The position numbers and the translations under genes are program-made. From NCBI GenBank assembly GCA_026994195.1, contig JALWRH010000123.1, forward strand, positions 1 to 33,662: a DNA stretch of 33,662 nucleotides, in the 5' to 3' direction. Positions 1-5,677 of the stretch are shown here, in pieces (position 1 is the stretch's first letter; each line of letters opens with the position of its first letter). Under the pieces are notes generated by a model. That model worked only from the letters and a program-made list of their open reading frames with translations. It had not been told where the DNA came from and did no database searches. This stretch comes from Sedimenticola sp. (GTDB taxonomy: Bacteria; Pseudomonadota; Gammaproteobacteria; Chromatiales; Chromatiaceae).

Positions 1-671
1 CTTCGCATGGCGTCTCGCCGCGACGGCCCCCTGATTCCACTCATGCCGCTCATCCCGGACATGCCGCCCATGCCAGACATGCCGTTCATGCCAGACATGC
101 CGCCCATGCCAGACATGCCGTTCATCCCAGACATACCGTTCATGCCAGACATGCCGCCCATGCCAGACATGCCGCCCATGCCTGACATACCGTTCATGCC
201 AGACATGCCGCCCATGCCAGACATGCCGTTCATGCCCGACATGCCTGACATACCCGACATTCCAGACATGCCACTAGCAGGGTAAAAGAAGATCTGGCCC
301 TGAGGAGTGATCTTGAAGTAGCCGCTCATGCCCGACATCCCGGACATGCCACCCATGCCGCTCATGCCAGACATGCCATTCATGCCGGACATCCCGTTCA
401 TGCCTGACATGCCATTCATGCCAGACATGCCGTTCATGCCAGACATGCCGTTCATGCCAGACATGCCATTCATGCCAGACATGCCGTTCATGCCAGACAT
501 GCCGTTCATGCCAGACATGCCGTTCATGCCTGACATGCCATTCATGCCTGACATGCCGTTCATGCCATACATACTGGCGCCGGCAGTGGTGACCATAGTG
601 GTGCTGATAAGGGCAGCAATGCCTATGGCCTTCTTGATCTGTTTGGTTATTTTGCACATTCGTGTCTTCAT
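1..671 (-). CDS. Exported Met-Gly triplet-repeat protein (C-terminus cut by window edge)
   Basis: The frame is open from an ATG at 669-671 to the window edge, giving 223 codons with no stop. AGGAGG lies 6 nt before the ATG. Residues 1-32 form a Sec signal peptide: a Lys/Arg-rich start, the hydrophobic run AIGIAALIST and cleavage near TAGA|SMYG. The mature part is almost entirely Met-x-Gly triplets. There are 28 triplets (mostly MNG-MSG alternating), then a 17-residue insert with aromatic residues (YFKITPQGQIFFYPASG), 26 more triplets (MSG, MNG, MGG), and a tail beginning IRGPSRRDAMR. That is 54 Met in about 190 mature residues, with Gly at every third position. Function is unknown. Periplasmic Cu(I)/Ag(I) binding by Met thioethers and a structural role (such as a sulfur-globule coat) are both inferences. 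It lies 95 bp behind the gene at 767-1060 and probably shares its sigma-54 promoter. Confidence 0.85.
   Translation of the reverse strand, partial: MKTRMCKITKQIKKAIGIAALISTTMVTTAGASMYGMNGMSGMNGMSGMNGMSGMNGMSGMNGMSGMNGMSGMNGMSGMNGMSGMNGMSGMNGMSGMNGMSGMSGMGGMSGMSGMSGYFKITPQGQIFFYPASGMSGMSGMSGMSGMNGMSGMGGMSGMNGMSGMGGMSGMGGMSGMNGMSGMNGMSGMGGMSGMNGMSGMGGMSGMSGMSGIRGPSRRDAMR
36..269 (-). repeat. 9-bp coding minisatellite, block 2
   Basis: Twenty-six consecutive 9-bp units encode Met-x-Gly with x = Ser, Asn or Gly in a less regular order than block 1. The 17-codon aromatic insert separates the two blocks. The reading frame is preserved throughout. Confidence 0.9.
321..572 (-). repeat. 18-bp coding minisatellite, block 1
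   Basis: Eleven consecutive, nearly identical 18-bp units encode Met-Asn-Gly-Met-Ser-Gly. One MYG triplet precedes them and five degenerate 9-bp half-units follow. Units differ mainly at synonymous third positions (gtt/att for Asn, aga/tga/gga for Ser). This suggests recent amplification under selection for the triplet pattern. Such arrays can change copy number by slippage in multiples of 9 bp without breaking the frame. Confidence 0.9.
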
Positions 672-766: not shown

Positions 767-1060
767 CTATTTCCGATGCCATCCCCGGATATCGTAGGGG
801 CCGGTTAGTCCCGGGTGATTGAAAGGTGTGTACCAGTTACCCTGGTTGTCCAGAAAATACAGACTGCGGGGAAACGGAGGCTGGATTCCTGTGAGAGCAT
901 GCTTGAACCAAGCCTGATCGTGTTTTACCCATTCAATGACAGGTGCTCCCAGCGGACGGGCATCGGGCTGTGTTCCTGCAATGGGGTAGGGCTTATCCGC
1001 GTAGGATGAAAGGGGGGTCAACAGTAAGACCGCAAAGCAAGTTTGGTGAACACTTTTCAT
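767..1060 (-). CDS. Small exported protein of unknown function
   Basis: This encodes 97 residues from the ATG at 1058-1060. An in-frame TTG three codons upstream is less likely, because AGGA sits 9 nt before the ATG. The N-terminus is a clear signal peptide: MKSVHQT, then a hydrophobic FAVLLLTPLSS, with probable cleavage after SYA. The mature chain is about 75 residues, rich in Pro, Trp, His and aromatics (WVKHDQAWFKHAL, LYFLDNQGNWYTPF, GWHRK), with no Cys and few acidic residues. I do not recognise the family. The gene starts about 38 nt after the predicted start site of a sigma-54 promoter (1109-1125). It is followed on the same strand by the Met-Gly repeat gene, so the two are probably expressed together. 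Confidence 0.75.
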   Translation of the reverse strand: MKSVHQTCFAVLLLTPLSSYADKPYPIAGTQPDARPLGAPVIEWVKHDQAWFKHALTGIQPPFPRSLYFLDNQGNWYTPFNHPGLTGPYDIRGWHRK

Positions 1061-1108
1061 CGGGCACAATCCTGTTAGGTATAGGGAAGGGGGGTTGCTT
1101 GCTTAGTT

Positions 1109-1125
1109 AGCAATCCTTGTGCCAT
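1109..1125 (-). promoter_or_regulatory. Sigma-54 (-24/-12) promoter P1
   Basis: The minus strand reads ATGGCACAAGGATTGCT, which matches the sigma-54 consensus TGGCAC-N5-TTGC(A/T). Exactly 10 nt separate the invariant GG (1122-1123) from the GC (1110-1111). The predicted start is near 1098, about 38 nt before the ATG at 1060. A sigma-54-dependent response regulator is encoded nearby (4298-5677). Confidence 0.8.
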
Positions 1126-1211
1126 GTTGTCTGTGCTGTTCTAAATCACTGAAACCATGAATAAAATAATGTGGCCCTGTTGTTTCCGTAATCACGGGCA
1201 GGGGAAAAACC

Positions 1212-1224
1212 TGACAAGCTGTCA
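1212..1224. promoter_or_regulatory. Palindromic activator site A (TGACA-N3-TGTCA)
   Basis: The sequence TGACA-AGC-TGTCA is a perfect palindrome with a 3-bp centre. Its centre is about 108 bp upstream of the -12 element of P1, a normal distance for a sigma-54 enhancer site. The same palindrome occurs at 1347-1359 and 2381-2393. Inferred target: the Fis-type HTH of the response regulator at 4298-5677. Confidence 0.65.
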
Positions 1225-1346
1225 TATGAAAACATCCGTGAAGATGACGTAATCATTGAAATCGGCTTGCTGTTCTCAATGGAGTGTCCGCTGATGCCAG
1301 ATAAATCAGTAAGTTGTAAATCCAACTTTAGTGGATTTCTTGTGGC

Positions 1347-1359
1347 TGACATCCTGTCA
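1347..1359. promoter_or_regulatory. Palindromic activator site B (TGACA-N3-TGTCA)
   Basis: This is a second perfect copy, TGACA-TCC-TGTCA, 135 bp further from P1 than site A (near -255). Paired sites are common for response regulators that oligomerise to activate sigma-54 polymerase. Sites A and B occupy the otherwise gene-free stretch 1061-1436, where I see no credible coding sequence. Confidence 0.6.
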
Positions 1360-1396
1360 TAGGGTAGGAGTTGTCCAGGAAAACGCAGGCATAACT

Positions 1397-1420
1397 CCCT
1401 CCCCCGCGTGCGGGGGAGGG
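1397..1420. terminator. GC-rich hairpin after the three-repeat gene
   Basis: An 11-bp perfect stem, CCCTCCCCCGC/GCGGGGGAGGG, with a 2-nt centre lies 17 bp beyond the stop of the leftward gene ending at 1437. No clear T-run follows on the minus strand, so it may act as a processing or stability hairpin rather than a strong intrinsic terminator. It also separates that gene from enhancer site B. Confidence 0.5.
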
Positions 1421-1436
1421 TTGGGCAGTGGGGACT

Positions 1437-2213
1437 TCATTCAAGAACTATAACTGCGCCATCGCTGTTGCGGATGGCAAGCTGGTGCATAAGTCGATAG
1501 GGCCGTTTGGAGGAGACGATGCTGATGATATGCACACCCAGGATTCTGCGGATGCGGCCTACGCTGGCTTCCATCCCGGATTGATCGGCCAGCCAGCTTT
1601 GCGCGACATCATGCGCTTTTTGCCAGGAGTTTACAGGCAGATCCGGTTGGTAACGGGTCAGTACGCCTGCACAGCGAGCAACAGTACCAGCCTTGTTTTT
1701 TCCCGGAGGATACAGAAGCAGGCTCCCGTCTGCTGTATCTTCGATTCTCCAGCCTGCAGCTTCCAGTTTCTCCTTCATTCCAGCCAGCGATCCGGGTTCC
1801 TTGGATGTTGAGGGCTTTGTCTGTGGAATCTGGTCTCGTGGTGGCCTGAGCACCAGGGCGCCATCGGCATCTTCAGAGGTGCTCCATCCTGTTTTTTCCA
1901 GTTTCTGCCTGAGTTCTTGCCAACGATTGTTCTGAGATGGCGTGGGCTTTTCACTCTTTCCAGAAGTACTACGTGGCCTGAGCAGCAGATCGCCTGTTGC
2001 CGTTCGTGAGGCATCCCATCCGGCATCCTCAAGGGCCTTGATGAGCTGATCATTGGAAGGAAGGGGATGACTGGCTTCCGGTTCGGTTGATTTCCCTGAC
2101 TCCAGGGATTGTTCCAGTTCGGATACAGAAGCGGCGCCGGCCAGGCTTCCCTGTAGAAGAAATATCCCGAGAATCAGGTTTCTTGTTGCAGATGGATGGA
2201 CGGTGTGAATCAT
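1437..2213 (-). CDS. Exported protein with three copies of a short repeat; unknown function
   Basis: This encodes 258 residues from the ATG at 2211-2213. An in-frame ATG at 2228 would add five residues but has no ribosome-binding site, whereas GGGGA lies 8 nt before 2213. A signal peptide (LILGIFLLQGSLAGA) comes first. The mature chain holds three related segments of about 26 residues: LIKALEDAGWDASRTATGDL, LRQKLEKTGWSTSEDADGAL and MKEKLEAAGWRIEDTADGSL, each followed by L-L/V-L-R/Y-P. The pattern is an amphipathic helix, an invariant GW, then D/TG and a short strand. Pro/Ser/Lys-rich linkers join the repeats. The C-terminal 80 residues look like a separate small fold ending RNSDGAVIVLE. I do not recognise the family. 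A sigma-54 promoter (2275-2291) faces this gene, which is divergent from the two-component operon. Confidence 0.8.
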   Translation of the reverse strand: MIHTVHPSATRNLILGIFLLQGSLAGAASVSELEQSLESGKSTEPEASHPLPSNDQLIKALEDAGWDASRTATGDLLLRPRSTSGKSEKPTPSQNNRWQELRQKLEKTGWSTSEDADGALVLRPPRDQIPQTKPSTSKEPGSLAGMKEKLEAAGWRIEDTADGSLLLYPPGKNKAGTVARCAGVLTRYQPDLPVNSWQKAHDVAQSWLADQSGMEASVGRIRRILGVHIISIVSSKRPYRLMHQLAIRNSDGAVIVLE

Positions 2214-2274
2214 CTTGCTGTTCCCCATGTAGTGATTGGAATGCTCTGGTGTAAAGAGCTATGCGGCACTACCA

Positions 2275-2291
2275 AGCAAGAGTTGAGCCAA
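2275..2291 (-). promoter_or_regulatory. Sigma-54 (-24/-12) promoter P2
   Basis: The minus strand reads TTGGCTCAACTCTTGCT, which matches TGGCAC-N5-TTGC(A/T) with one mismatch (CTC for CAC). The 10-nt gap between GG (2288-2289) and GC (2276-2277) is exact. The predicted start is near 2264, upstream of the three-repeat gene. Together with P1 this gives two sigma-54 promoters flanking a gene pair whose regulator needs sigma-54. Confidence 0.72.
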
Positions 2292-2380
2292 TGCCTGAAT
2301 GTTTACAGAGTTTGTAATAAGCACGGGATGTGAAGGTCGAAAGGAAGCGCTTCTGTCAAGGGCACAGCCAATGTCAGGCA

Positions 2381-2393
2381 TGACAATATGTCA
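2381..2393. promoter_or_regulatory. Palindromic activator site C (TGACA-N3-TGTCA)
   Basis: The sequence TGACA-ATA-TGTCA is a perfect copy of sites A and B. Its centre is about 110 bp upstream of the -12 element of P2, almost the same distance as site A from P1. Extra TGTCA half-sites occur at 2373-2377 and 2407-2411. The site is also 58 bp upstream of the kinase start codon, so it could mediate autoregulation of the two-component operon. Confidence 0.65.
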
Positions 2394-2450
2394 GAGACTT
2401 ATTCTTTGTCAGGCGTAGAATATTCCTATTCCCGGTTGCCGGAGGAAGAA

Positions 2451-4307
2451 ATGGCGTGGCTTGGAAACAGTTTGAATCACAAATTCACCGCGGCCACCAT
2501 TGCGGGTTTCCTCGTGAGTTCTGTGGTGTTCATGCTGTTGTTTCTGACTTTCTATCAGGAAGAGCTCAAGCAGGAACGTGCCCAGGCGGTTCGTGAAGTC
2601 AATAATCTGCTCCAGTCTTCCCTGGAAAATGCGATGCTGAAGCGCGATTTGGCAGGTCTCATTTATATCGTGCGGCACTTGGGTAAGCAGCCCAATATCT
2701 CATCTGTGATGATCGTCAATCCCAAGGGCGAGGTGCGTTTTGCCAGCCGGGTTGAAGATGAAGGCCGCCATCTTCCAGTAGCGTTGGTCACGGGTGAAAA
2801 AGCCCATACCCTGTTCACCCGGGACATACATGGCCGTGAAGTGTTGCGCAGTGTGAACCCGGTTCACAACAAGCCTCCCTGCCAGCAGTGTCATGGCCCC
2901 ATGCAGGAGCATCCTGTCAACGGCATACTGTTGGTGGATTACGACGCGACATCCATTCGGCAGCAGGCACGAAATACCACCCTGATGCTCATGGGGGCCG
3001 GCTCACTCATCGTTATCGTCAATCTTATTGGCGGCTGGTGGTTCATTCGGCGTTTCATTCTCAAGCCTGTTGCTTCTCTGAGCCACACCAGCCAGGCGCT
3101 TTCCAGGGGAGAATTGAGTGCCAGGGTGGATACTGAGGGCAATGACGAACTGGCCCGGCTGGGTCAGACCTTCAATCAGATGGCGGAAAACCTTCAGAGC
3201 CATACCCGCAAGCTGGATGAGGGCAAAGCCTTTCTGCAGGCCATGATCGATGCCATTCCAGATGGTGTGCGTATCATCGATATGGATTACAACATGCTGC
3301 TGGTCAACAAGGCTTTTGTGGAACAGGCGGGTTACAACGCTGAAGCCCGGGTGGGTGGAAAGTGTTACGCCGCTTCTCATGGACTGGATTCTCCCTGTCC
3401 TTCTGAACTCTATACCTGTCCATTGGTGGAACTCCGGCGCAGTGGAGAGCCTATGAAAGTCATCCATCATCATGTGTGTGAGAGTGGTGATTCCCTGGAT
3501 GTGGAGGTCTATGCGGCGCCTATGACAGTTGTCAGTGAAGGCAGTGAGAACATGCTGGTGGTGGAAGCGATCCGGGATCTCAGCAAGGAAGTGCGCTTTA
3601 CTCATGAACAGCGCCTGTCAGAGCTGGGCAGGCTGGCAGCCGGAGTGGCCCATGAGATCTATAATCCATTGAGTTCCATGAAGCTGGCGCTGCATTCACT
3701 CATGCTCAGTATGCAACAGAATGGCAATCCTCCTGCGGAGGTTGCTTATGATCTGGCTATCGTGGAGGAGGAAATGGATCAATGCATCCACATCACTGAC
3801 AAGCTGTTGCGCCTCAGCGCCACACCCCTGGAAAAAGAGGAACTGGTGGATATTCAGGAAGTGTTGACCGACACCCTCAGCCTGTTGCGTTGGGATGCAG
3901 AGCAGGCGGGCATTGACATACAAAAACACTTTCCCGATGCCTGTTCCCGGGTTATTGCCAGTAGCAGTGAAATACGCATGTTGATGCTCAACCTTGTGCA
4001 AAATGCTTTCCATGCCATGCCGGAAGGGGGCGAACTGCAGGTGTTTGTGGAGCGTCTGGATGGGCAGATCCTGGTGCGTATCAGTGATACAGGCGTGGGA
4101 ATATCAGAAGAAGAACTGCCCTATATCTTCATGCCGTTTTTCAGCCGGCGGGCGGATGGTGTTCATGGCACAGGTCTGGGGTTGTCCATTTCCAAAGCCA
4201 TCGTGGAAGCCTATGGTGGCACCTTGAGCGTGACCAGCCGGGTAGGGCAGGGAAGCAGTTTCCTGGTCAGTCTGCCTGAAGCTACGGAGGAAAGCACATG
4301 GCATTGA
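2451..4307 (+). CDS. Sensor histidine kinase with periplasmic c-type haem motif
   Basis: This encodes 618 residues from the ATG at 2451, which has GGAGG 5 nt upstream. An in-frame ATG at 2388 lacks a ribosome-binding site and lies inside regulatory site C. The domain order is: membrane segment (about 18-37); periplasmic sensor of about 140 residues containing CQQCH (144-148), a CxxCH covalent haem c motif; membrane segment (about 177-199); HAMP (about 200-252); PAS (about 260-375) with a Cys/His cluster (CYAASHGLDSPCPSELYTCP); HisKA with phospho-acceptor His401 in AGVAHEIYNPLSS; and HATPase with NLVQNAFHAM, DTGVGI and GTGLGLSI. It should autophosphorylate and pass phosphate to the response regulator, whose gene overlaps it by 10 bp. 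Haem in the sensor suggests redox, oxygen, NO or similar sensing, but the ligand is unknown. Confidence 0.92.
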   Translation: MAWLGNSLNHKFTAATIAGFLVSSVVFMLLFLTFYQEELKQERAQAVREVNNLLQSSLENAMLKRDLAGLIYIVRHLGKQPNISSVMIVNPKGEVRFASRVEDEGRHLPVALVTGEKAHTLFTRDIHGREVLRSVNPVHNKPPCQQCHGPMQEHPVNGILLVDYDATSIRQQARNTTLMLMGAGSLIVIVNLIGGWWFIRRFILKPVASLSHTSQALSRGELSARVDTEGNDELARLGQTFNQMAENLQSHTRKLDEGKAFLQAMIDAIPDGVRIIDMDYNMLLVNKAFVEQAGYNAEARVGGKCYAASHGLDSPCPSELYTCPLVELRRSGEPMKVIHHHVCESGDSLDVEVYAAPMTVVSEGSENMLVVEAIRDLSKEVRFTHEQRLSELGRLAAGVAHEIYNPLSSMKLALHSLMLSMQQNGNPPAEVAYDLAIVEEEMDQCIHITDKLLRLSATPLEKEELVDIQEVLTDTLSLLRWDAEQAGIDIQKHFPDACSRVIASSSEIRMLMLNLVQNAFHAMPEGGELQVFVERLDGQILVRISDTGVGISEEELPYIFMPFFSRRADGVHGTGLGLSISKAIVEAYGGTLSVTSRVGQGSSFLVSLPEATEESTWH

Positions 4308-5677
4308 AAGCCAGTATCCTGGTGATCGAGGATGATCGTGTGCTCAATCGCATGATCGTGCGCCAACTCGAATTCATGGGGCACCAGGGACACGGAGTGG
4401 AAGATCTGGCGGCGGCGCATGCCTGGTTGCACAAGAACGAACCCGACTTGATCATTTCTGATATGCGTCTTCCAGACGGGGACTGTATCGATGAGCTTCA
4501 GGAATTGGGGGAATCTCATCCGGTTATCGTGCTGACGGCCTATGGTACCGTCAAGAATGCCGTGGAGGCCATACGTGGGGGGGCGGCAGATTACCTGACC
4601 AAGCCTGTGAGTCCGGAGGAACTGTCCCTCACGGTTGAAAGAGTGCTGGATACAGAAGCCTTGCGTAGCGACCATCAGTTCTGCAAGTCCCGCCTGGCCG
4701 CGCAAACAGGTTCCCACTCTTACATGATTGGTCAGAGTGATGCCCTAAACCGCGTAAAGGAATTGATCGATGCGGTTGCAGACACCGATGTCACCGTGCT
4801 GGTGCTGGGTGAAAGTGGCGCAGGCAAGGAACTGGTGGCGCGCGCCATCCATGATCAGAGCGGGCGTGCCCACAGAAACTTCGTCGCTGTCGATTGCTGC
4901 ACCCTGCAGGAGAGCCTGTTCGAATCAGAACTGTTCGGCCATGAAAAAGGTGCTTTCACGGGAGCGGACCGCAAGAAGAAAGGACTGATAGAGGGCGCGG
5001 CGGGCGGCACCCTGTTTCTGGATGAAATTGGCGAGATACCTCCGCCCATACAGGCCAAGCTGCTGCGTGTTCTGGAAACCGGAAAGTTCCGGCGTGTGGG
5101 GGGTACCCGTGACCTGGATTCGGACGTGCGTATCGTCGCAGCCACGAACCGTAACCTCAAGAAGATGTCTGAGAGCGGAGAATTTCGCGCTGATCTCTAC
5201 TACCGCCTGGAAGCTTTCAGCATTTATGCACCGCCTTTGCGGGAACGCCGGGAGGATATTCCCTGGCTGGTGGAGCACTTCATACACAATCACAATTTTT
5301 CCATGCGGGTAAAAAAAACTGTCACCAAGGAAGCCATGCGCAAGCTGATTTCCTATGACTGGCCCGGCAACGTGCGTGAGCTGAAAAACGTGGTGGAGCG
5401 GGCCATCATTCTTTCGCGCAAGAACAAGATGATCCGCAGTCAGCATCTGACGTTTGGCGCCTGTCAGCAGGAAACCGGGTTTCAACTGGATCTGCCTGGC
5501 GGTTCGTCGCCAACCCTCGAAGAACTGGAGGCCAGTTACCTGAAGATGTTATTGGAAAAGCATGCCGGGCATCGCGCCACGGTAGCGCAGATCATGGGTA
5601 TCAGCGAACGGCATGTATACCGTCTGATAAAGAAATACAGGTTGGGTGAACTGCCGGCTCTGGCAAAGAAGGCCTGA
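4298..5677 (+). CDS. Sigma-54-dependent response regulator (NtrC family)
   Basis: This encodes 459 residues, from an ATG with GGAGG just upstream that overlaps the kinase gene. The receiver domain (about 6-118) has the phospho-acceptor Asp55 in IISDMRLPD and a Lys in YLTKP. The AAA+ domain (about 142-375) has Walker A GESGAGKE (171-178), the sigma-54 contact motif GAFTGA (218-223), Walker B GTLFLDE (237-243) and an arginine-finger region. A Fis-type helix-turn-helix occupies about 425-447 (ATVAQIMGISERHVYRLIKK). All catalytic motifs look intact. Phosphorylation would allow hexamer formation and open-complex formation at -24/-12 promoters. The matching promoters found nearby are P1 and P2. The likely binding site is TGACA-N3-TGTCA, inferred from the layout rather than from the protein. 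Confidence 0.96.
   Translation: MALKASILVIEDDRVLNRMIVRQLEFMGHQGHGVEDLAAAHAWLHKNEPDLIISDMRLPDGDCIDELQELGESHPVIVLTAYGTVKNAVEAIRGGAADYLTKPVSPEELSLTVERVLDTEALRSDHQFCKSRLAAQTGSHSYMIGQSDALNRVKELIDAVADTDVTVLVLGESGAGKELVARAIHDQSGRAHRNFVAVDCCTLQESLFESELFGHEKGAFTGADRKKKGLIEGAAGGTLFLDEIGEIPPPIQAKLLRVLETGKFRRVGGTRDLDSDVRIVAATNRNLKKMSESGEFRADLYYRLEAFSIYAPPLRERREDIPWLVEHFIHNHNFSMRVKKTVTKEAMRKLISYDWPGNVRELKNVVERAIILSRKNKMIRSQHLTFGACQQETGFQLDLPGGSSPTLEELEASYLKMLLEKHAGHRATVAQIMGISERHVYRLIKKYRLGELPALAKKA

Follow-up and report, generated by a model that had tools for sequence, protein, structure and literature searches.

Palindromic sites, sigma-54-type promoters and a putative sulfoxide-reductase-type operon associated with an NtrC-type two-component system in Sedimenticola sp.

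The two-component systems AtoSC, ZraSR and NtrBC combine a histidine kinase with a response regulator consisting of a receiver, an AAA+ domain with the GAFTGA motif and a Fis-type helix-turn-helix, and use enhancer sites located about 100 bp from -24/-12 promoters. Both features are found again in the 33,662 nt stretch of DNA analysed here (the window), from a marine sulfur oxidiser, Sedimenticola sp., but its kinase differs from those of the three systems by a CxxCH motif in the sensor region. The regulator has the receiver, sigma-54 AAA+ and Fis-type domains expected of the NtrC type, including the intact GAFTGA motif and the Fis HTH reported by a first-pass annotation of the sequence. Equivalog models all remained under their cut-offs among the best 25 of 94 for the kinase and the best 25 of 112 for the regulator, with scores of 203.4 for AtoS (cut-off 646) and 381.8 for AtoC (cut-off 714). 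The E. coli AtoC sites at atoD and dmsA, as given in the relevant parts of the source (PMC3118216), differ in sequence from the operators described here. Our best reading of the locus is an NtrC-type two-component system which, together with sigma-54, would drive a sulfoxide-reductase-type operon, with regulator binding, signal and substrate as we infer them below. Among the matches listed in keyword searches of the open-licence literature, none described these genes as a set or how they are controlled.

The palindrome TGACA-N3-TGTCA is present in exactly three perfect copies in the window, all of them at the places named by the first-pass annotation (operators A to C, Table 1); dinucleotide shuffles contained 0.01 copies on average and none out of 100 reached three. 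In the whole genome (2,996,874 bases on 126 contigs) we identified four exact places, three of which are those of the window, and not the many scattered copies that would have spoken against a local regulon. The fourth, C100:24358, is located within a patatin-like reading frame; in the stretch searched, no sigma-54 element (≤2 mismatches) lay closer than 1 kb. When one mismatch is allowed, 42 places are found (38 of them inexact) versus 50 for the reversed control pattern; inexact operators are thus roughly at chance level genome-wide and only the exact cluster stands out. Among the matches listed, which extend into contig C93 and were compared by eye, two inexact operators lie less than 500 bp from a sigma-54-like site. 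As additional regulon sites we rejected C93:21189, which falls within the 3' end of a reading frame and for which no suitable target was seen, and C55:62178, which overlaps its sigma-54-like motif inside an activator-domain match.

Both predicted -24/-12 promoters were found where they had been claimed, each with exact GG-N10-GC spacing, and show no (P1, TGGCACAAGGATTGCT) and one mismatch (P2, TGGCTCAACTCTTGCT) to the consensus used. The distances to the -12 elements, previously given as about 108 bp for site A and about 110 bp for site C, were measured as 108 and 111 bp. RpoN is encoded in the genome (contig C69), and the whole genome contains 136 sigma-54-like places with ≤1 mismatch versus 52 for the control. 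In the window itself the motif is not enriched at ≤2 mismatches (23 observed, 27 expected), and it is therefore their position and conservation that make P1 and P2 convincing, not the number of motifs. This chance-level number of sigma-54-like 16-mers is what a mere chance clustering of short motifs would predict, an explanation that we consider extremely improbable, as it is already contradicted by the rarity of the palindrome, the geometry and the conservation across three classes.

The conservation of the promoters was assessed in 57 loci (the window and 56 others); the 100-aa gene was detectable in 46 of them and the 263-aa gene in 42. A sigma-54 element faces the 100-aa gene in 43 of the 46 loci and the 263-aa gene in 36 of the 42, one of which has no candidate promoter (both counts at p≤0.05 versus shuffles that keep dinucleotides, window included, scored with unfitted sigma-54 weights). 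Among the window matches at ≤2 mismatches no sigma-54 element directed at the kinase was seen. The kinase gene probably starts at 2451, after the GGAGGAAG stretch and at the onset of homology, and not at the mechanical ATG 2388, which would place site C upstream of the gene with no overlap of its start; autoregulation through site C is possible.

Table 1. Features of the locus in window coordinates
Feature	Position	Strand	Remarks
Exported Met/Gly-rich (GMx)n repeat protein	3..671	-	cut by contig end
Small exported protein (97-100 aa)	767..1060	-	conserved C-terminal WYTPF..PGM.G.YDIRGWH
P1, sigma-54 -24/-12 element	1109..1124	-	TGGCACAAGGATTGCT; 100-aa protein/Met-rich/Mo-enzyme operon
Operator A, TGACA-N3-TGTCA	1212..1224		centre to P1 -12 C, 108 bp
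Operator B, TGACA-N3-TGTCA	1347..1359		centre to P1 -12 C, 243 bp
Exported 263-aa protein	1437..2228	-	tandem helix/hairpin repeats (GW...DGSLxLxP); C-terminal helix and four strands
P2, sigma-54 -24/-12 element	2275..2290	-	TGGCTCAACTCTTGCT; 263-aa protein gene
Operator C, TGACA-N3-TGTCA	2381..2393		centre to P2 -12 C, 111 bp; just 5' of kinase gene
Sensor histidine kinase	2451..4307	+	CQQCH heme motif in sensor region; HAMP, PAS (three invariant Cys), HisKA and HATPase domains
NtrC-type response regulator	4298..5677	+	receiver, sigma-54 AAA+ with GAFTGA, Fis-type HTH ISERHVYRLIKKY

The first-pass annotation had suggested a comparison of the intergenic regions in relatives, where sites, promoters, spacing and regulator linkage indeed recur, with the reservation that these relatives are not independent, many being Thiodiazotropha and some named loci being the same contigs as unnamed ones. 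In 40 of 46 loci, window included, an operator with ≤1 mismatch precedes the -12 element of P1 by 20-350 bp (mean 0.35, maximum 3 in shuffles preserving mononucleotide composition only). At a distance of 108-112 bp an operator with ≤2 mismatches is found in 39 of these 46 loci, 27 of them with ≤1 mismatch; in 36 of the 46 a second copy lies 240-295 bp away. The copies are mostly imperfect, exact P1 operators in relatives being limited to 7/46 loci. Upstream of the kinase (≤400 bp) an exact operator exists in 42 of the 57 loci and is missing in 15, and its spacing to P2 is fairly fixed, with 77-80 or 110-121 bp in 27 of the 32 loci where P2 has an exact copy nearby. The named loci, of which 80 out of 476 were kept and the 37 with a detectable 100-aa gene were used, include Alpha- and Betaproteobacteria; 27 of the 37 carry an operator with ≤1 mismatch (mean 0.33, maximum 2 in the same kind of mononucleotide shuffles).

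Six named loci (L098, L113, L115, L117, L125 and L152) have kept operators in stretches where neither a kinase nor a regulator was found; in L115 and L117 this is no effect of the contig end, because about 6 kb of further sequence is present on that side. The genome of T. endoloripes has a single strong Mo-enzyme match (626 bits, versus 218 for the next), which sits at L113, so the operator sites there probably control that enzyme. L115 and L117, together with 12 other places in the genome with strong sigma-54-activator matches (>160 bits), would agree with palindromes that belong to a different DNA-binding protein, either a repressor or another enhancer-binding protein. We regard this as highly improbable, since each of the 26 named loci in which kinase and/or regulator are linked has an operator within 2 mismatches, and the five loci with no operator (L142, L154, L162, L168 and L172) have neither of the two genes in the stretch searched; for L154 the kinase may be off the contig, as only about 1.3 kb of sequence is available upstream of the gene. 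The fixed distance to the -12 element is as expected of an enhancer, and 31 of the 32 regulators aligned, from three classes, have retained the recognition helix SER-x-x-YR, which likewise argues against a different protein. The conserved sites, promoters, spacing and linkage strongly support the earlier proposal that the adjacent regulator acts on P1 and P2 via the palindromes, presumably by binding them.

CxxCHG occurs in 33 out of 33 aligned kinases, and is absent from the first 260 residues in 8 of the 57 kinase-family members, five of which are downstream paralogues. The kinases of L084, L087 and L088 lack the motif in this region and are not downstream paralogues. The sensor region matches Pfam PF21563 (Mcp40H-20), which we take to be a heme sensor model, with E 3e-5 and 24.7 bits, under the cut-off of 27; the heme-c periplasmic sensors of this family share the CxxCH, but the protein here is a histidine kinase and not a chemoreceptor.

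As targets of the system the first-pass annotation had predicted three uncharacterised exported proteins. Exported proteins are indeed encoded downstream of P1 and P2, but the prediction was too narrow, as further genes of the P1 operon lie on contig C23. The window makes up the entire contig C123 and ends inside the gene of the Met-rich (GMx)n protein, which follows the 100-aa gene at the start of the operon. C23 opens with the same kind of (GMx)n repeat and goes on with genes for a pentaheme cytochrome, a DmsA-like Mo enzyme, DmsB-like and TorD-like proteins, a cytochrome c and a ferredoxin. We place the junction of C123 and C23 on the basis of relatives and not by a read across it; in one complete relative genome the operon is contiguous. 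Kinase and Mo enzyme occur together in 50 of 195 genomes (55 kinase and 58 Mo-enzyme carriers; Fisher's p 5e-32, which ignores kinship), with kinases counted at E of about 2e-47 or better and G113 excluded (split match, 1.7e-24).

About a quarter of the residues of the (GMx)n protein are Met; for its family we chose 24 members by a Met share >20%, the lower bound being set by this choice. It matches Pfam Collagen, and 34 of 37 loci retain its gene (33 with Met ≥0.15, to which L157 was added, with 0.13 and visibly the same repeat). The 100-aa protein has no match in Pfam or NCBIfam, and its AlphaFold2 model (mean pLDDT 61.8, pTM 0.34) is too poor to use. Of 274 genomes sampled from the class, 11 contain its family, its own genome among them. 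In a plasmid collection it appears in one record, from Rhodobacter xanthinilyticus. The 263-aa protein (mean pLDDT 72.6, pTM 0.34) ends in what by eye appears PepSY-like; a Foldseek search of PDB found nothing at E≤0.001, and the best hit, the YpeB C-terminal domain (E 0.069), is compatible with a PepSY-like C-terminus but no proof of it.

Copper genes are located directly 3' in the window and the MxxM spacing suits Cu(I) binding, both of which would fit a copper regulon, in which copper would be the signal and the Met-rich protein a periplasmic Cu(I) sponge working along with the copA, copB, DUF411 and Cu-ATPase genes. CopA-like tblastn matches are nevertheless restricted to 5 of 57 loci, namely the window plus four other genomes from the same genus, with the corresponding position reachable in 48 (≥4.5 kb past the kinase start). 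The copper genes have no exact operator in the window, and the constant partners across alpha-, beta- and gammaproteobacterial loci are the Mo enzyme and cytochromes. Because the copper-gene linkage is limited to the genus of the window, we rejected a copper regulon as the general function and consider this explanation improbable.

By alignment, the Mo enzyme is placed in the Ser-ligated subgroup of the DMSO-reductase family. Its Ser222, invariant in 15 out of 15 sequences, aligns with the residue of DorA (1eu1) that we take to be the Mo-ligand Ser, and an invariant His82 occupies what is presumably the position of the third cluster Cys in DmsA. The enzyme of relative L034 scores 623.5 bits with dmsA_ynfE TIGR02166 (DMSO/selenate reductase A subunit), under the cut-off of 777.7, which was exceeded in none of three further genomes; the DmsB-like subunit is likewise below the curated DmsB cut-off. 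The comparison with PDB was made by single-sequence search; a PDB profile search with query A1 returned no match at E≤1e-100. A DmsC-type anchor was found neither among the C23 genes scanned (the contig ends at 7168) nor in six of the seven reading frames (≥130 aa) after the TorD-like gene of L105. The SYGW motif, by which one study (PMC7402097) defines DorA-like proteins and which it ties to sulfoxide reduction, is not present in the enzyme, which has SYAG at the aligned position.

These data bear on the possibility that the output is ordinary anaerobic DMSO/TMAO respiration, with the Met-rich protein playing only a structural, collagen-like or polyglycine-II-like role. The enzyme family, the Ser at the presumed ligand position, the TorD-like and DmsB-like genes and the Collagen match would all agree with it, and we see it as a real possibility, if not a likely one, in view of the scores under the DmsA and DmsB cut-offs, the lack of a DmsC-type match in the genes scanned and the absence of SYGW. 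A structural role, moreover, does not in itself explain the retention of the Met-rich gene.

Taking DNA sites, geometry, conservation, gene content and co-occurrence as the direct evidence, we think it quite probable that a redox-responsive two-component system controls one conserved sulfoxide-reductase-like operon. The membrane kinase would sense a periplasmic signal via the domain with the c-type heme motif and phosphorylate the NtrC-type regulator, which would bind TGACA-N3-TGTCA, loop the DNA and activate RpoN-polymerase with its GAFTGA loop at both promoters, through sites A and B at P1 and through site C at P2. The latter promoter would then provide the 263-aa exported repeat protein. 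P1 would provide the 100-aa and (GMx)n proteins and, beyond the contig break, the pentaheme cytochrome c, the molybdenum enzyme (DmsA-like, with a Tat signal), the Fe-S subunit (DmsB-like), the TorD-like chaperone, a cytochrome of monoheme type and the ferredoxin. As output, we consider it likely that an S- or N-oxide or a similar oxyanion is reduced in the periplasm, with the electrons presumably flowing in that direction.

A more specific and rather unlikely proposal is a methionine sink, in which the (GMx)n protein takes up periplasmic oxidants as Met sulfoxide, or alternatively stores oxidising equivalents, and is regenerated by the co-transcribed Mo enzyme. The polymeric protein would be the enzyme's own substrate, re-reduced with the help of the cytochromes, and the heme-motif kinase would tune the whole operon through sigma-54; the set would have spread through sulfur-oxidising Alpha-, Beta- and Gammaproteobacteria, animal symbionts included. 

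The locus described here shows where to look for the control of an enzyme that probably matters in chemosynthetic symbioses, one with a clam included. With its conserved Met-rich and 100-aa partners, what was a vague 'DMSO reductase' annotation becomes a question on the real substrate that can be tested.

With DmsABC, DorA and TorA the operon shares the Mo-enzyme family, the aligned Ser, the Tat signal and the TorD-like and DmsB-like partners, but it differs from them by its cytochromes, the Met-rich protein and sigma-54 control. The MrpX/YedY hypochlorite defence, said to have been described by Melnyk in 2015, reportedly combines a Met-rich exported protein with a molybdenum sulfoxide reductase of the sulfite-oxidase family under an ECF sigma system. 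The pairing of a Met-rich exported protein with a Mo enzyme, here one of putative sulfoxide reduction with the Met-rich gene nearby in 34 of 37 loci, is common to both, whereas the locus described here uses sigma-54 and a DMSO-reductase-family enzyme with cytochromes.

The palindrome TGACA-N3-TGTCA described in the first-pass annotation was present at all three positions in the window, and the genome-wide scan proposed there yielded four copies in total, the fourth being located inside a reading frame. Both -24/-12 elements were likewise found where claimed, P1 with no mismatch and P2 with one mismatch to the sigma-54 consensus used. Measured from the operator centre to the C of the -12 element, the distances are 108 and 243 bp for P1 and 111 bp for P2, close to the approximately 108 and 110 bp originally estimated. 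Sigma-54-like motifs are no more frequent in the window than expected by chance, so the case for the promoters rests on geometry and conservation.

We consider the recurrence of both in 57 loci (the window and 56 relatives), oriented by the kinase. Of these, 42 have an exact palindrome no more than 400 bp upstream of the kinase and two have one only farther off; in 13 none was found in the stretch. Sigma-54 elements above shuffles (p≤0.05) point toward the small exported 100-aa gene in 43 of 46 loci and toward the 263-aa gene in 36 of 42. P2 has an exact palindrome within 500 bp in 32 of 42 loci, at 77–80 bp in 20, at 110–121 bp in seven and elsewhere in five. For P1, promoters were picked independently of the operators, with mononucleotide shuffles as control. 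Exact operators surround it in 7 of 46 loci (shuffle mean and maximum 0), operators with ≤1 mismatch in 40 (mean 0.35, maximum 3) and with ≤2 mismatches in all 46 (mean 5.8, maximum 14). Copies with ≤2 mismatches are located 108–112 bp from P1 in 39/46 loci (≤1 mismatch in 27), and a second copy at 240–295 bp in 36/46, so the geometry of the window is that of the family. The exact palindrome at P1, in contrast, is shared by the window with only a few relatives.

The window is one entire contig (C123) and begins within the gene of a Met/Gly-rich (GMx)n exported protein, and a second contig of the same genome, C23, starts inside a repeat of the same type. In one complete genome from this genus the genes form an unbroken run from the 263-aa gene as far as the Fe-S subunit and the beginning of the TorD-like gene. 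The DmsA-like molybdenum (Mo) enzyme encoded there and the one on C23 share 96% identity; we infer from this that the two contigs probably adjoin. The first bases of the window (1–33) deviate from the GMSGM repeat, perhaps as an artefact of assembly where the repeat is broken. Family names of the C23 genes were taken from a scan of C23 and of a relative's genes. The local sigma-54 module of the first-pass annotation is real and conserved, but its output is not confined to three exported proteins: the P1 operon apparently continues on C23, which gives the module a larger and more interesting set of targets than the window alone suggested.

Coordinates of the module and of neighboring features
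Feature	Contig or locus	Position (strand)	Remarks
Met-rich gene	C123	3-671(-)	
100-aa gene	C123	767-1060(-)	first gene after P1
P1	C123	1109-1124(-)	
Site A	C123	1212-1224	
Site B	C123	1347-1359	
263-aa protein	C123	1437-2228(-)	
P2	C123	2275-2290(-)	
Site C	C123	2381-2393	
Kinase	C123	2451-4307(+)	
Regulator	C123	4298-5677(+)	NtrC-type
Copper cluster	C123	5706-12407	CopL-like (below cut-off), multicopper oxidase CopA, CopB, DUF411, Cu-ATPase with several HMA domains
Pentaheme cytochrome	C23	749-1540	
DmsA-like Mo enzyme	C23 (L097)	1537-4134	Tat signal
DmsB-like Fe-S protein	C23	4152-4820	
TorD-like protein	C23	4811-5572	
Cytochrome c	C23	5544-5987	
Ferredoxin-type protein	C23	6010-7053	
Fused Fe-S/DmsC-type protein	L164	18250-20142	opposite strand

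The kinase occurs in 55 and the Mo enzyme in 58 of 195 genomes of the order; 50 have both, 5 only the kinase and 8 only the Mo enzyme (uncorrected for kinship). Several one-partner genomes are incomplete; exceptions are G005 and G110, which have just the Mo enzyme although both are 99% complete. In a profile search, the closest named Mo enzyme matches (93–94%) came from Thiolapillus brandeum, a Chromatiaceae MAG and a Bathyaustriella symbiont, which makes Thiolapillus the probable genus of the window. Searching named genomes with the Mo enzyme gave 476 places, 80 of which were kept; among them are Thiodiazotropha, Sedimenticola, tubeworm and lucinid symbionts, Thiobacillus, Rhodocyclaceae, Tepidiphilus, Thermopetrobacter and Hyphomicrobiales. 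Operators were counted in those 37 kept loci in which a 100-aa gene could be detected: exact copies occur in 12 (shuffle mean 0.01), copies with ≤1 mismatch in 27 (0.33) and with ≤2 mismatches in 32 (4.15). Two alphaproteobacterial loci (L164, L173) carry exact copies at 108 bp, and Thiobacillus-like loci (L146, L148, L157) TGCCA-N3-TGGCA-type variants near 96, 150 and 237 bp. Wherever the kinase, the regulator or both are linked (26 named loci), an operator with ≤2 mismatches is present, and the five operator-free loci (L142, L154, L162, L168, L172) contain neither protein in the stretch examined, which in L154 is shortened by a contig end. Six loci with operators and neither protein in the stretch (L098, L113, L115, L117, L125, L152) count against strict linkage; in the Thiodiazotropha-type L115 and L117 the operators are exact and the absence is not a contig-end effect.

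The kinase CxxCHG is invariant in 33/33 aligned orthologues, as are three cysteines of the cytoplasmic PAS domain (C305, C316, C323), possibly a second redox or metal site. In another locus set, 49 of 57 kinase-family members have CxxCHG within the first 260 residues. For the sensor region, a chemoreceptor sensor model gave a weak match. Five loci (L048, L051, L052, L054, L055) encode a second kinase of this family, 3.2–4.2 kb downstream of the first and past the regulator; its first 260 residues contain no CxxCHG. The regulator recognition helix SER-x-x-YR is found in 31 of 32 aligned sequences (SVR in L151), a literal GAFTGA in 28. Downstream of the regulator directly follows a copper cluster; CopA-like matches occur in only 5/57 loci. 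In the Thermopetrobacter locus a fused Fe-S/DmsC-type protein adjoins the regulator.

In the Mo enzyme C74, C78, His82 and C122 are invariant, and a His as third residue of the N-terminal cluster motif would be unusual for DmsA. Ser222 aligns with the Mo-ligand serine of DorA, and SYAG stands where DorA has SYGW. The operon cytochrome contains five CxxCH in 22 of 24 members and four in two. Between 100-aa gene and cytochrome the Met-rich gene is present in 34 of 37 named loci and was not found there in L144, L151 and L154; 21 of 24 Met-rich members, sampled by Met >20%, carry a YFKITP insert. The 263-aa protein consists of tandem GW...DGSLxLxP units followed by a C-terminal helix and four strands; by eye, this hairpin unit resembles the YFKITPQGQIFFYP insert of the Met-rich protein.

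Given the sites, geometry, conservation and gene content observed here, the phosphorylated regulator most likely binds about 110 bp upstream of P1 and P2, and at P1 also about 240–295 bp upstream, and activates RpoN polymerase at both promoters. The reductase operon and the 263-aa protein would then be switched on together by a single periplasmic redox signal. We infer the regulator binding as well as the signal and the substrate of the system; autoregulation via site C, suggested by its proximity, is possible.

Published work offers several comparisons. Lucinid symbionts carry dmsAB-like genes near a soxY (PMC11237559), and the strongly expressed DMSO-reductase-like gene of the Loripes symbiont (PMC6872982) is likely the present Mo enzyme. 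The DMSO-reductase-family polysulfide/thiosulfate reductase upregulated in one condition in the Laxus symbiont (PMC8269255) is taken to be a different enzyme. Met sulfoxide bound in proteins is a substrate of DorA (PMC7402097), so that a role of the Met-rich protein as a methionine sink would be chemically reasonable, although the present enzyme lacks the SYGW motif used for DorA in that paper. NtrC-type control of a dms operon has some precedent, since AtoC binds upstream of E. coli dmsA, but the sequence of that site differs from TGACA-N3-TGTCA (PMC3118216). None of the best matches listed in the open-licence literature gives an account of the present operon or its control. The regulatory kind (NtrC-type, sigma-54) is already known. 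Its pairing here, as a heme-motif NtrC-type system, with a Met-rich, cytochrome-linked DmsA-like operon seems to be a variant not yet described.
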